Shown piece after piece: positions 40,598 to 47,843 of a stretch of DNA of 47,843 nucleotides (positions are counted from its first letter, which is position 1; the number at the start of each line of letters is the position of its first letter). The stretch lies in IMG/VR virus record IMGVR_UViG_3300025896_001214, positions 1 through 47,843 of that record. The stretch is one strand, 5' to 3'. The position numbers and the translations under genes are program-made. Source of the stretch: a virus. Under the pieces are notes generated by a model that saw nothing but the letters and a program-made list of their open reading frames with translations, did not search any database and had not been told where the DNA came from.

Positions 40598-42634
40598 TTA
40601 TTTACTTGTAGCTCTAAATGTGCCGTCCCAATTAGCTGGGAGTCCTTCATTCATACGCTCTAGCATATTTACATAATATTGATGCAGTGAATTATCTAGC
40701 TTGACTAACTTTTCACATGCTTTGATTGCACGAGCCCAATCACCGCGATAGTATGCAGTTAGATAGATATCGTGTAGTGTTATATCTGTTGTTCCTAGTG
40801 TAAAGATTCGAACTCCAATGTTCTTACCTTTGACAGCAATGCAATCAAGTTCTACTACAGAGTACTCGTCTTTAACTAATTCTGCTGTACGTTGTCCTAG
40901 AACAATCTTGACACCATACGGCTTAGACTGGCCCTCGAGTCTGCTTGCCAAATTAACACCGTCGCCAAGGCAAGTGTAATCAAACCGCTGATCACTACCC
41001 ATATTACCCACAACAACGGCGGCAGTATTAATGCCAAGACCCATACCAAAAGCTGGTACACCTTCTGCTGTAACTTCTTTATTAAACGCATCTAAACTCT
41101 CCATCATCTCTAATGCTGTCTTAACTGCCATGTGTGCGTGACGTGCTTCGTCAACTGGAGCATTCCAGAATGCCATCTGGGCATCGCCAATATACTTGTC
41201 TAATGTTCCGTTATTGTCAATAATTTTCTTGGTCATTGCAGTCATGTAACGGTTCATGATCTTTGTAAGTCCTTGTACGTCTTTACCATAGTGTTCAGAG
41301 ATTGTAGTAAAGCCACGAACGTCAGTGAACATAATTGATAGTTCACGTTCGTCGCCGCCCAACTGCAACATCTCAGGATTCTTTTGTAGCTTGGCAACCA
41401 AGGCAGGACTCAGGTAAGTGCCAAACTGTTTCTTGATCTGTTGCTTTTGTTTGAACTCAATTACAAAACGTGCAAACAGTGCATGTCCATACAGCATAAC
41501 ACTGGCAATTGTTAGATAATAAATGTCCCAGAGCTGACTATAATGATTCCATGCATAGAAGCTTCCGCCCGCTACTGATCCAATGGTAACAACCAGTGCC
41601 GCTCCCACTGCCCAAAAAGGTAATCGGGGCATAACGAAAATTAGTACTAACGCTATCAGTATAATTGCTAATAACTCCGCAGTGTTTGCAAACGCTGGCC
41701 TAACGGGACTGCTGCCATCTAGTAGTGTTTGCACAGTTTGAGCTTGAATGTCATGTGCCCATCGTTCTCCTTGTGGAGTGGCAATAATTGTGCCCAGTCC
41801 TTCAGCGCCTAGCCCCAGTACAACAATTTTATTCTCTAAGTTGATGTTGTTCTTGGCCAGTTCTGACAACTCATAACGTTCAAATTTCTTGTTCCAACGT
41901 AGCCAAACCCTAGCATGTTGATCTGTAGTAATAATAGGCTGGCCTGCAATGCGAACCTTTTCAATTCCTGCGGAACTTATTTTGACTTGATAGCTTTGTT
42001 CTCCTGTAGCAACACGAAGTGCTTCAATTGGCAAGCTGGGATAAATTTGGTCGCCTACAGCAACTATTAATGGCATGCGACGAACAACACCGTCTACTTC
42101 AGGTGCCACCACACTGGTGCCAACGCCAGCTGCACTGTCGGCCAAGATCTTATAAGGGCTTAATGCTCCGGGCCAAGCAAATACCCAATCCTGGGCCAAG
42201 CCACCAATCACAGCTACTCCTCGACGAACAGCATCGGGACGTTTGTTTTGTGTAGTAGGTGCTTGTGCAATAACACTGTTGGTCAGTTTTAGGGCAGCGG
42301 CTAGTTCTTTGTCTTGCCCCATTCTATCTGCTTCGCTCATGATGACAGGAACAACAATTACAGATGCCCCAAGAGCCTGTATACGATCAATAGCTTGTGC
42401 TAGATTCCTGCGAGGCCACGGCCATTGACCCAGACGTTCTATACTGGCTTCTCCAATATCAATGATGACAACATTGTCTGACTCGACAGGAGTGTCGATA
42501 CTCAGCAGAGTATCAAAGCCTTTTAATTGTATGCTTTCAACAGGCGCAGGGTTAGAGATTTTTAATGCCACTAGTACAACTGCTGTAACAGTTACCCATG
42601 CAATACTCCATGGTCCGGGAATAAAGTTCTTCAT
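40598..42634 (-). CDS. CHASE2-domain class III adenylate/guanylate cyclase
   Basis: 678 aa. The N-terminal helix (WSIAWVTVTAVVLVALKI) is followed by a ~290-aa CHASE2 extracellular sensor (FDTLLSIDTPVESDNVVIIDIGEASIERLGQWPWPR; YELSELAKNNINLENKIVVLG), then three transmembrane helices and the cyclase domain. Cyclase residues: SIMFTDVRGFTTISE and GTLDKYIGDAQMAFWNAP (two metal Asp), and RFDYTCLGDGVNLASRLEG with the transition-state Asn and Arg, so it appears catalytically complete. It would be an inner-membrane enzyme making cAMP or a related cyclic nucleotide. A TTGACT-N17-TAAATT promoter places the start site at or next to the ATG. Confidence 0.93.
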   Translation of the reverse strand: MKNFIPGPWSIAWVTVTAVVLVALKISNPAPVESIQLKGFDTLLSIDTPVESDNVVIIDIGEASIERLGQWPWPRRNLAQAIDRIQALGASVIVVPVIMSEADRMGQDKELAAALKLTNSVIAQAPTTQNKRPDAVRRGVAVIGGLAQDWVFAWPGALSPYKILADSAAGVGTSVVAPEVDGVVRRMPLIVAVGDQIYPSLPIEALRVATGEQSYQVKISSAGIEKVRIAGQPIITTDQHARVWLRWNKKFERYELSELAKNNINLENKIVVLGLGAEGLGTIIATPQGERWAHDIQAQTVQTLLDGSSPVRPAFANTAELLAIILIALVLIFVMPRLPFWAVGAALVVTIGSVAGGSFYAWNHYSQLWDIYYLTIASVMLYGHALFARFVIEFKQKQQIKKQFGTYLSPALVAKLQKNPEMLQLGGDERELSIMFTDVRGFTTISEHYGKDVQGLTKIMNRYMTAMTKKIIDNNGTLDKYIGDAQMAFWNAPVDEARHAHMAVKTALEMMESLDAFNKEVTAEGVPAFGMGLGINTAAVVVGNMGSDQRFDYTCLGDGVNLASRLEGQSKPYGVKIVLGQRTAELVKDEYSVVELDCIAVKGKNIGVRIFTLGTTDITLHDIYLTAYYRGDWARAIKACEKLVKLDNSLHQYYVNMLERMNEGLPANWDGTFRATSK

Positions 42635-42639
42635 ACTAT

Positions 42640-42673
42640 AATTTAGCATATTTTTCAACAAAAGTCAAGTCAA
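42640..42673 (-). promoter_or_regulatory. Promoter of the cyclase gene
   Basis: Minus strand TTGACT (42663-42668) and TAAATT (42640-42645) are spaced 17 nt. An overlapping second TTGACT (42668-42673) pairs with TATGCT (42646-42651) at 16 nt. The first predicts transcription starting about at the ATG (leaderless). Confidence 0.6.
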
Positions 42674-42835
42674 ATAAGTTGGACCACAATGATCCGTAAA
42701 TATTCATTAGTAGCCATATACTCAATGTTCATCTGTTAACCATATTTTTGCGGCATCATAAAATTTTACGGTACAAGTAAGTAGATCCATATTTTTGCGG
42801 GTTAATTATTTGTGTATTGTGTTTTTGGTTAACAC
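42674..42835. repeat. AT-rich intergenic segment with 14-bp direct repeat
   Basis: No gene is seen. CCATATTTTTGCGG occurs at 42740-42753 and again at 42787-42800. CCGTAAA near 42701-42707 and TTTACGG near 42765 form a dispersed inverted pair. A GTGTT...AACAC hairpin lies at about 42817-42835. The segment lies between the end of the structured RNA and the cyclase promoter. Confidence 0.5.
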
Positions 42836-43312
42836 GAAAAATTTGATTCTAAGATGAATCAAATAGTGATAGTTTTGCTAGATTGGGAGGCCATACGACA
42901 CCCTGTAAAGGATGCCGGATGAGATGTTTGCTTAGACGATCAGCCACACTGAGACAATAGGTATTTGGGTTTCCGCATCTCTGGGCTCTGTAACTTACCC
43001 TACCTATTACGATTTTTAAAACAACTTCGGTGTCATATGTTGTTATGGATGCATTGGAACTAAGTCGGCTTACACCGCACTCAACCTGTATACTAGTATT
43101 CAAACGTAAAACCCTGAGGGGCAACATTTTAAGGCATCCGTACTGAGACGGGTAGTGAATACGAGTCCGTGGTGTACTCACAGAATTGGGCATCGGCACA
43201 CACTTAGATGCTTACCCAGCGGAATATTATCTGGCCCGCTAACCTTACGTTACACTTGATTATTGTGCAGTACTTACGACTGCTGTAGCAGGACCAATCG
43301 CCAGAGATAGCG
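42836..43312 (-). ncRNA. Putative large structured non-coding RNA (~480 nt)
   Basis: No credible protein is encoded here. Reading the minus strand, several stems are visible: GTGAGTAC with GTATTCAC (8 bp; 43174-43181 and 43155-43162); AATAGGTA with TACCTATT (8 bp; 42956-42963 and 43001-43008) extended inward by GGGT/ACCC; an 8-bp GU-containing stem at 42896-42903/42910-42917; and small hairpins near 43272-43290. The 3' end is the terminator at 42837-42864. The segment 43201-43220 contains AAGCATCTAAG inside a CGCT...AGTG stem, like helix 97 of bacterial 23S rRNA. The 5' end and class are unknown; large ornate phage RNAs such as GOLLD or ROOL are possible relatives. Confidence 0.6.
42837..42864 (-). 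terminator. Intrinsic terminator of the structured RNA
   Basis: Perfect 9-bp arms ATTTGATTC (42841-42849) and GAATCAAAT (42856-42864), 6-nt loop. On the minus strand the stem runs into TTTTT (42837-42841). No CDS precedes it within ~450 nt, so it most simply ends a non-coding transcript. Confidence 0.85.
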
Positions 43313-44647
43313 TTATTGGGGTGACTGAGTCTGTTGCGCTCGATACCATTCCCATGCTTGATTGTTTATTTCTCTGCCAACCGTTCTTCTATAGTAGCCT
43401 ATTAGGCCCACTAGCTTTTGATTTTCATCCCATACGGCTGAAGCATCTTTACCAAGCCATGGTTTAAAATCAGCGCCCTTGGCCCATTCTTTACAATGCT
43501 GTCTAAGTTTACTGCCATCTGGATCCCATGCTTGCCAAGCCTTACTGCTGGCCAACTCTACATCTAAGTTATCAAACAGGGTTTTTTCAATCAAGGCAGG
43601 TGTAATTACTCCCGACGATTTCTTATTACTAATAGTCTTGAGTTGTTTGATAATTCTTGGATCTAATACAACACCTTGTGTGGGTTCGTTGTGGGCAATC
43701 CATCCATGACCAGGATCAAATACACTAGTAAAGCCCAAGTCGCGCAGGACTTTATTCCAACGAACAACATTAGTTTCGTCGCTTTTTCCCAGTCTGCTTA
43801 AACAATCGTAAATGAAATAATATGGCGTACCATCGTATTCGGGTTCGTCTATGGCCTGTTGAATTACATCTTCAGGACAATATTGAAGCAATGCTTGTTT
43901 TAGTTTGTTTTCGTCTACAGATGTTTCTTTTGTCATTTCACCTGAACGGTCATATTGAAACAACTGAATATAAGGATAGTCACTGCCCCAGGGTAATTTT
44001 TTACCACGGCGTGCTAGGTCTACAGCATAGTCTAGGGGATAGAAGTAAATGCCTTTAGGTGTATCTTCACTGATGCCCACTTGCGGGTTGATACCCAACT
44101 TGGGTTCACTGGTCATACTGATGGCCCAGTTTTGTGGATCTGCAATGGTGTCAGCAACAGCCACCAATTCTTTCATGCCTGATTCATACCTGACACTCTG
44201 TTCTGGATTGGTTCGTGCTTCATCAACTGTTTCCCAAGCCATACTTTTACTGCCCTTAACTGTAGGCTTAAAGCCTTGTCCTCGATAGAACTTTGTTAGT
44301 TTAGCCTGACTTACTTGTCCCTTATCCCACGGGAATAGTGTAAGCGCAATGCCATCTGCACGTGCCATAGACTGTAGTTCCTGCATAGCTTTGCTGCCTA
44401 CACCTTGACGTAGAGGATATGCTTGGAACCATTTAACTTCAACTGCTCCACGCTTGCTAAAACTTGGCACTAACTCAAACATGGCAAACTGCTGCTCATC
44501 ACCCGAGCCCCAGACCATAACGTGATTGTTTTGCATTGTATGCGGGTACTTTGCGTAGACTCGTTCAATCCATGCTTTAGCTGCTTCGTTATTGCCTAGC
44601 CTGATTCTAACTGGCTCGTCGTTTTCAATTAAGTCTCTTATTAGCAT
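43313..44647 (-). CDS. GNAT acetyltransferase-domain protein, candidate packaged effector
   Basis: 444 aa from MLIRDLIENDEPVRIRLGNNE (4 nt after the previous stop; a longer frame upstream has no better start). The leader resembles MKLRELI/MKIYDIL of neighbours and L-I-E-N fits a hydrophobic-x-Glu cleavage site. Residues ~60-135 form a GNAT domain: WFQAYPLRQGVGSKAMQEL (acetyl-CoA pyrophosphate loop R-Q-G-V-G-S) and KLTKFYRGQGFKP. Residues ~165-320 (MTSEPKLGINPQVG, TPKGIYFYPLDYAVDLARRGKKLPWGSDYPYIQLF) are a module also seen in phage proteins of unknown function. The C-terminal third is unassigned. Confidence 0.78.
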   Translation of the reverse strand: MLIRDLIENDEPVRIRLGNNEAAKAWIERVYAKYPHTMQNNHVMVWGSGDEQQFAMFELVPSFSKRGAVEVKWFQAYPLRQGVGSKAMQELQSMARADGIALTLFPWDKGQVSQAKLTKFYRGQGFKPTVKGSKSMAWETVDEARTNPEQSVRYESGMKELVAVADTIADPQNWAISMTSEPKLGINPQVGISEDTPKGIYFYPLDYAVDLARRGKKLPWGSDYPYIQLFQYDRSGEMTKETSVDENKLKQALLQYCPEDVIQQAIDEPEYDGTPYYFIYDCLSRLGKSDETNVVRWNKVLRDLGFTSVFDPGHGWIAHNEPTQGVVLDPRIIKQLKTISNKKSSGVITPALIEKTLFDNLDVELASSKAWQAWDPDGSKLRQHCKEWAKGADFKPWLGKDASAVWDENQKLVGLIGYYRRTVGREINNQAWEWYRAQQTQSPQ

Positions 44648-44651
44648 TTTC

Positions 44652-45311
44652 TTATCCTGTAAACGGATCTGTAATAACTGGAGTATCACCGCGTCGCATT
44701 ACATTTTCAGTGTGTAAATCCCAGCCTAGCCCACGACTTCTTCCAAATTGGAATAGCTGTTGCATTACTACAAATAAACTTGCGTACATTTTTTCTACTG
44801 CTGGATCACTTAGCCCCTTTGCAATGTCGCTTTCTCGCCCAGGTCCAGAAAAGTGTTCCCAGAACTCGGGCTTGATTAGTTGCGCCTTAGCATCACGCCA
44901 TTTCATAAAAGGTATAATGGACAAGTCACTAAGTCCCCACACCATCTGTTCCATAAAACTGTTATTGACAATGGGCTCAAGATTCTCCATTGATATTTGT
45001 CTATAGTCTACTCCATTGAGTGTAAACACAGTATGATCAAAACCGCCAATACTGATAAATCTTGGCAGGAACGGTGACTTCTTATGTGCTGTATAAAACT
45101 CATAAAACGCTAAAAACGATGCGTCTCCTTCAGCCCGAGACAACTCTTGCGGCATGATGATTTTAATAACACTGCCTTCTTCTTTGGTCCATACAGTTGC
45201 GTCATAGCCGCTGCCAACACTCTTGTATCCAAGTTGCTTTAGCTTTGCTATAATTTGTTTACTATTGGTAGAGTCTTGATCGTACTCGTACAGGATGTCG
45301 TATATTTTCAT
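44652..45311 (-). CDS. Protein-kinase-like protein, candidate packaged effector
   Basis: 219 aa. Glycine loop GSGYDATV (~33-40), ATP Lys in SVIKII (K50), hinge-like SMENLEPI (~107), catalytic-loop equivalent WDLHTENVM (D198, N203) and a TDPF segment (D215) replacing DFG. Sequence order and spacing fit a minimal, C-terminally truncated eukaryotic-like or aminoglycoside-kinase-like fold; the protein ends four residues past DPF. The N-terminus MKIYDILYEYDQ is a candidate capsid-targeting leader. The phosphoryl acceptor is unknown. Start one base after the previous stop. Confidence 0.75.
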   Translation of the reverse strand: MKIYDILYEYDQDSTNSKQIIAKLKQLGYKSVGSGYDATVWTKEEGSVIKIIMPQELSRAEGDASFLAFYEFYTAHKKSPFLPRFISIGGFDHTVFTLNGVDYRQISMENLEPIVNNSFMEQMVWGLSDLSIIPFMKWRDAKAQLIKPEFWEHFSGPGRESDIAKGLSDPAVEKMYASLFVVMQQLFQFGRSRGLGWDLHTENVMRRGDTPVITDPFTG

Positions 45312-47346: not shown

Positions 47347-47843
47347 TTACTGTCCTTGCTGTACAGTAATCTTGGCGCAACCACCAGCTGTGGCACAGTT
47401 AAATTGTATACTATAGAAGTGCTGAACAGCACCAGATTGAGTTAAACTTAAATCAGTTGGGTTTCCAGTTAGGCCCACACTTGCCACATGGCTTGCAGAT
47501 CCTTGCTGTAATATATCTACATTCTTGTTGCCGCCGCTTAATGTTACTTCTGCATAATGGCTACCACTGTCCTTCTGTGTCAATAATAAACTATTGTTGT
47601 TGTCATTTATTTTTACAAACGCACCCTTTAGCCCGGTGCCCTGTTGCACGATTGACACACTGTTGTTATTGCCTACTATTCCAAGATCTGTGTAGTTTGA
47701 TGCGGTGGTATCTCCTGATTGCAAAATGCTAACTGTATTGTTATTGCCAGTGCTGGCATACTCAGCATGGTTATCTTTGGTCCCAGTTTGCTCAATTGTG
47801 GTAATATTGTTTGATCCAATTTGTTCAATGTATATCTGTGCAT
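47347..47843 (-). CDS. Curlin-like repeat protein, partial (5' end outside)
   Basis: At least 164 residues in frame to the right edge; the N-terminus is missing. The visible chain is made of repeating units with the CsgA/curlin spacing: IYIEQIGSNN..TTIEQTGTKDNHAEYASTG; NNNTVSILQSGD; NNNSVSIVQQGTG.KGAFVKI; NNNSLLLTQKDSGSHYAEVTL; NKNVDILQQGSASHVASVGL; LSLTQSGAVQHFYSI. The alternating N-x-V-x-I-x-Q-x-G with Asn ladders predicts a beta-solenoid fibre. It ends CATAGGCAKITVQQGQ. Likely an extracellular or virion fibre; whether it is a fibre segment or an amyloid-like adhesin is unknown. Confidence 0.78.
   Translation of the reverse strand, partial: AQIYIEQIGSNNITTIEQTGTKDNHAEYASTGNNNTVSILQSGDTTASNYTDLGIVGNNNSVSIVQQGTGLKGAFVKINDNNNSLLLTQKDSGSHYAEVTLSGGNKNVDILQQGSASHVASVGLTGNPTDLSLTQSGAVQHFYSIQFNCATAGGCAKITVQQGQ

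Follow-up and report, generated by a model that had tools for sequence, protein, structure and literature searches.

A structured RNA of large uncultured phages with two short identical motifs that evolve in lockstep

The window analysed here comprises a single linear virus record from IMG/VR, 47,843 bases in length. A stretch of 651 nt (42662-43312) carries no plausible gene and is flanked by two genes of the minus strand. The upstream gene (43313..44689, minus strand) ends at the 5′ flank of the RNA described below, and a PHROGs search with its product matched nothing. The downstream gene (40598..42661, minus strand) encodes a cyclase-like protein assigned to phrog_35576, the function of which is unknown in PHROGs. 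The original prediction placed a highly structured minus-strand RNA of about 480 nt in this gap and regarded the gap as the only large one. The gene-free stretch is longer than predicted and, with open reading frames of at least 90 aa as landmarks, is the widest in the window, but it is not strictly the sole one, since gaps of 507, 435 and 416 nt come next. Between the RNA and the cyclase gene lies the 14-bp direct repeat CCATATTTTTGCGG (42740-42753 and 42787-42800), which is kept in the close relatives (alignment A1) and may serve as a promoter or as a binding site. Positions 44652-45311, two genes upstream of the RNA, encode a phage protein that resembles protein kinases (E 9e-7 to phrog_15752, which is annotated as a host transcription inhibitor). 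The open reading frame at 47347-47843, which is open at the window end, was read by eye and contains putative curlin-like repeats (..NNNTVSILQSGDTT..); a phage-encoded amyloid-like protein would be unusual.

Related loci were gathered by flanking-gene and motif searches and then with an HMM of the nearest relatives. The HMM matched the RNA, referred to as class A, in dozens of contigs (E-values between 1e-174 and 1e-22), and the contigs reach up to 354 kb. Forty distinct homologs from IMG/VR phage contigs were aligned with MAFFT. Conservation extends over approximately 42822-43321 in the close relatives, and the family-wide core, delimited by this alignment, by alignment A2 and by covariation, occupies 42874..43261 on the minus strand. 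The core is 388 nt long in the window and about 357-405 nt among the homologs. The class A covariance model R1 finds one copy in the window, and eight large class A contigs likewise yield a single copy apiece. Class A is a structured phage RNA that occurs in large uncultured phages, in which it stands beside varying genes. The perfect terminator with which the RNA was predicted to end is present in the window contig only, as a terminator-like hairpin of 9-10 bp with T5 (42835..42865, minus strand); it does not belong to the conserved RNA, because its 5′ arm is absent from the close relatives. In another class A phage contig a permuted tmRNA lies about 1 kb downstream of the RNA (L182:1154-1483, equal to L219:2826-3155); it matches RF04321 with 61.5 bits and, weakly, beta_tmRNA.

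The fold cannot be recognised from the window sequence by its energy. The minimum free energy of the minus strand is -124.5, compared with -122.9 +/- 6.5 for shuffled sequences (z -0.24), which is no better than chance, and the plus strand gives z +0.44. Since the folding energy equals that of shuffles, the complementary arms on which the prediction relied are not evidence alone. The description "highly structured" thus fails on the single sequence; it is borne out by covariation among the 40 homologs. When all column pairs of the alignment are ranked by background-corrected covariation, with no structure given, complementary helices come out on top, and canonical pairs make up 80% of the 20 highest-ranked. 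The resulting structure of 71 pairs, including one pseudoknot, has 95.7% of its cells paired in alignment A2, and 46 of the 71 pairs show double changes. None of 500 shuffles reaches the class A values for the percentage of paired cells and the number of double-change pairs, and sliding the partners by 1-3 columns lowers the paired cells to 36-43%. The window sequence itself forms 67 of the 71 pairs, the remaining four falling in an alignment gap. Compensatory change among homologs had been proposed as a check of the predicted RNA, and these counts speak for it. The opposite reading, that the signal is due to chance or artefact and the locus is an ordinary gap without a functional RNA, agrees with the single-sequence folding energy; set against the compensatory changes in 40 distinct homologs and the presence of the RNA in many independent contigs, its probability is practically negligible.

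The sole long open reading frame of the region encodes 116 aa (42849-43199). In each of the five close relatives (L081, L083, L084, L085 and L164) it is broken by a frameshift or a stop in frame, in agreement with the prediction that no protein is plausible here. Covariation, together with the disruption of this reading frame in all five relatives, shows that the locus encodes a structured non-coding RNA.

All elements of the RNA given here lie on the minus strand. The coordinates of the 5′ domain (43091..43248) are taken from the covariation structure, and its hairpins follow the order of the Rfam family RF01718. It comprises P2 (43236-43239/43219-43222), P3 (43215-43218/43187-43190), P4 (43179-43184/43166-43171), P5 (43156-43165/43093-43102), P7 (43125-43128/43103-43106) and P7b (43119-43122/43111-43114). 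The middle domain (42950..43060), defined by covariation and model R1, is the most conserved part. It contains P9 (43048-43052/42975-42979), the hairpin P10 (43039-43044/43020-43025) and P11 (42997-43000/42983-42986), and the stretches TTAAAA.TCGTA and GGGTAAG.TACAGAGCCCA are invariant in it. The pseudoknot helix P12 (42954..43010) joins GTAATAGGT (43002-43010) with ACCTATTGT (42954-42962); all nine pairs form in the window, 97.7% of the cells are paired, and four pairs show double changes. At 42984-43012 most class A RNAs have TAGTAGGTGGGGTAA, where the window has TAATAGGTAGGGTAA; the sequence TAGTAGGTGGGGTAA appears to occur in E. coli 16S rRNA as well, a likeness that is probably a coincidence. 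The 3′ hairpin P14 (GGCATCCT/AGGGTGTC, 42897..42916) pairs 42897-42904 with 42909-42916, and 93.6% of its cells are paired, the changes being mostly one-sided. Among the three 8-bp stems named in the prediction, 42956/43001 corresponds to one end of P12 and 42896/42910 to P14, while 43174/43155 is no conserved helix. P14 lies between two copies of the sequence AGCAAA, designated the twin motif. Copy 1 (42927..42932) follows GTCTA in the window and CTC in most other homologs, the window and its nearest relatives having one extra A before this copy. Copy 2 (42874..42879) follows ATCT and forms the 3′ end of the core.

An Rfam search of the window and of the RNA in 14 homolog loci revealed no family at its cut-off on the RNA; the only matches in the 14 loci were neighbouring tRNAs and one tmRNA. 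Class A is therefore a new family with respect to Rfam, and it may figure in published automatic catalogues of candidate viral structured RNAs. The suggestion of a new phage RNA class thus holds, the covariation being decisive. The alternative suggestion of a relative of GOLLD or ROOL does not, as neither model appears at gathering or even at E up to 5. Class A resembles these RNAs in being large, ornate, phage-encoded, pseudoknotted and of unknown function, whereas it is shorter and is matched by neither of their sequence and structure models. GOLLD is often located near tRNA islands. This is not the case for class A: the window has no tRNA, and of the 14 homolog loci scanned with Rfam no more than two, L174 and L209, have tRNAs.

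The nearest known family is instead Polynucleobacter-1 (RF01718), and the likeness involves the 5′ domain only. The lead was a weak match in one divergent class A member in a permissive Rfam scan. The RF01718 model, the cut-off of which is 37 bits, was run over 43 records. No class A RNA reaches the cut-off and the window RNA has no match; two class A RNAs are matched over the full length of the model, one with 24.2 bits (G040, E 5e-5 per genome) and the other with 15 bits (G012). In the reverse direction, a model of the class A 5′ domain (R3) gave two hits only in 369 kb of class B loci (see below), with 9.3 and 8.0 bits, and both fall on the class B 5′ domain. Model alignments read against alignment A2 show the RF01718 order of hairpins in class A: two 5′ hairpins, a variable hairpin and a helix enclosing two hairpins, together with the motifs CACTAYCC and GGAYG that both RNAs have in common. 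The middle domain of Polynucleobacter-1 is unlike that of the window RNA. These model scores and the shared layout indicate a distant relationship between the class A 5′ domain and Polynucleobacter-1.

Strong matches to RF01718, of 46-112 bits, are found elsewhere in four large class A genomes, and these matches extend downstream as a longer RNA, referred to as class B. Its conserved middle motif is present in at least 120 viral contigs, and an RNA of about 380 nt was defined from 112 distinct sequences among the matches listed. The RF01718 cut-off is passed by 18 of 19 class B contigs. The known orphan motif RF01718, which as curated comprises 141 nt, is only the 5′ third of this phage RNA, and its full length, class B, had gone unrecognised. 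Class B has strong covariation of its own, and its pseudoknot is paired in 98.6% of cells with double changes in five of six pairs. The full-length versions end in a twin-motif 3′ domain, as class A does. Because this 3′ ending is shared, class A and class B are probably paralogs; the model scores behind this homology are weak, and the common architecture is its other basis. One copy of class B was found by its model in 4 of 36 class A records, most of which are fragments, and the two classes occur together in four of the largest class A phages. Model R1 finds no copy of class A in the 19 class B contigs. A GIY-YIG gene precedes class B in 98 of 106 loci among the matches listed. This gene is common in cultured T4-like phages, and no RNA-sized gap follows it in the five annotated cultured-phage loci inspected. 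Neither the four class A queries nor the single class B query matched the DNA of a named phage in INPHARED.

In the GTDB genomes a class A 19-mer had no exact match, and a class B pattern gave 17 hits, of which one is a real class B match and the others are due to chance. The real match is a partial class B-like RNA (L353:3202-3440, 78 bits) on a 153 kb contig of a Methylococcaceae MAG, possibly a phage contig in the bin. A weak RF01718 match of 14.9 bits (L221:1501-1641) could be due to chance or represent a degenerate class B copy; the class A RNA of L085 stands elsewhere in this contig. In most class B contigs the cow-rumen-2 family (RF02947) gives matches of 13-25 bits on the middle domain of the RNA, some 40 nt beyond the RF01718 match. 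None of 24 records exceeds its cut-off of 66 bits, the window class A RNA has no match, and a cow-rumen-2 pattern was not found in viral contigs. Because such sub-threshold hits recur in most class B contigs, cow-rumen-2 may be a relative of the class B middle.

The surroundings of the RNA bear on the question of whether it is a leader. Polynucleobacter-1 was marked as probably cis-regulatory by Weinberg 2010 (PMC2864571), and in the window and the close relatives the cyclase-like gene adjoins the RNA, about 160-175 nt downstream on the same strand. This arrangement is not found in most homologs. In the survey of class A neighbours the genes beside the RNA change from one homolog to the next and the one downstream is frequently convergent, the nearest gene downstream of class B is on the opposite strand in about half of the loci, and a constant class of same-strand downstream gene was not found for either RNA. 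Of 38 class A cores, 14 have the promoter-like sequence TTGG-N6-12-TGTATA[AC]T immediately upstream, where 0.09 would be expected; on both strands of all class A loci together it occurs only 16 times. The general sigma-70 score upstream of class A is slightly above that of shuffles, and simple terminators are present in 10 of 36 class A loci. The varying neighbours, the often convergent downstream gene and the promoter-like motif argue for a trans-acting gene rather than a leader. Judged from these sequence features, class A is likely to be transcribed independently, and a role as cis-regulatory leader of the downstream gene, the cyclase gene in the window, is very unlikely.

In both classes the twin motif consists of two segments of 6-7 nt, about 50-60 nt apart, around the 3′ hairpin, and in both the motif changes in the course of evolution, yet its two copies remain the same. 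In class B, CTC and the motif are followed 47-61 nt later by TCT and the motif. The two copies are identical in 107 of 109 sequences among the matches listed, and eight main forms occur: AGATAAT, GGATGAA, GGATAAT, GCATAAT, GGATGAT, AGATGAA, AGATGAG and AGATGAT. On a tree built without the motif columns, parsimony requires at least 35 changes per copy. The identity has sharp borders: it amounts to 99-100% at positions 1-7 and 10% at position 8, and the three positions before the motif, always CTC at one copy and TCT at the other, are 0% identical. The class A forms are AGCAAA, AACAAA, AGCGAA, AGATGA and GGATGA; the two copies are equal wherever both could be read, and at least nine changes have taken place. 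No third segment complementary to the twin motif was found in cis above chance. When class A and class B reside in one genome, their motifs differ. We know of no other RNA family with identical repeats that change in lockstep and have sharp borders, and a literature search, mainly of open-access papers, found none described.

Two explanations of the identical copies were considered and rejected. Gene conversion or slippage does not agree with an identity that stops sharply at 7 nt; as gene conversion would blur the borders, the constraint looks functional. Translational bypassing, known from T4 gene 60, involves a hairpin between identical codons; against it, in the class B sequence inspected an in-frame stop lies just upstream, and the stop is absent from most class A motifs.

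We propose that the RNA is a conserved phage RNA presenting two equivalent sites to one trans partner, an explanation to which, as a whole, we assign a probability of roughly 0.5. The RNA would be stable, independently transcribed and trans-acting, and its fold would serve as a scaffold that exposes two equivalent sites, both single-stranded. The same trans partner would bind at both sites, through base pairing if it is a nucleic acid, or else as a symmetric protein, and the RNA may act during infection as a bivalent guide, decoy or scaffold. Contact of both copies with one partner is the least demanding reading of their identity, and the RNA probably grips the same partner twice. Since the motif changes often, a nucleic-acid partner drifting with it is likelier than a protein of fixed specificity. 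The different motifs of class A and class B in one genome imply that the two RNAs would need different partners.

The identity of the motifs could instead reflect direct contact between them. This is compatible with an ornate self-assembling RNA that, like GOLLD or ROOL, forms a homo-oligomer and is produced abundantly during lysis; the twin motifs would then be symmetric points of contact, either within one copy or from copy to copy. The RNA is likewise phage-encoded, hundreds of nucleotides long and multi-helical with pseudoknots, and a protein partner is not evident. GOLLD, ROOL and OLE all form homo-oligomers, as seen by cryo-EM for GOLLD and ROOL, but the ROOL example has 659 nt and GOLLD often more than 800 nt (PMC12286853), so that the present RNA is shorter than both. 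Homotypic contact normally needs no sequence identity, and the failure of the GOLLD and ROOL models also speaks against such an oligomer, which we regard as unlikely, although it is the most probable of the alternatives. To our knowledge, no feature like the twin motif has been described for GOLLD or ROOL.

Distinctly less probable is a ribozyme or a (self-)processed RNA, with the twin motifs as equivalent sites of cleavage, ligation or exchange at the borders of the 3′ hairpin. The strongly conserved core with its invariant unpaired stretches would suit a catalyst, and identical short sequences around a hairpin, with borders sharp at 7 nt, recall the junctions of excised segments; against this, the Rfam ribozyme and intron models gave no match, and no homolog was seen without the segment. 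It is similarly improbable that the motifs are two identical single-stranded 7-nt guides, set in one scaffold, which bridge or sequester two copies of a target by holding both at once, the target being for example phage genomic DNA or a transcript, or that they contact each other like with like. We know of no described RNA family with such a contact, the rule of which is identity and not complementarity. Two guide segments in one RNA hold two nucleic-acid partners in the IS110 bridge RNA; those guides are not known to us as identical copies, and the likeness is an analogy only, no recombinase gene having been noted beside the window RNA.

With these results, the orphan Rfam motif RF01718 of 141 nt becomes the 5′ third of a long RNA, and a second, paralogous class is added to it. 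Class A and class B are both phage RNAs, and some very large phages carry them together. The twin motif is a pair of RNA positions that covaries by identity, not by complementarity, with at least 35 lockstep changes, and it provides the first testable handle on function. If the partner is found from the motif sequence, the role of the whole superfamily of large phage RNAs would become testable.
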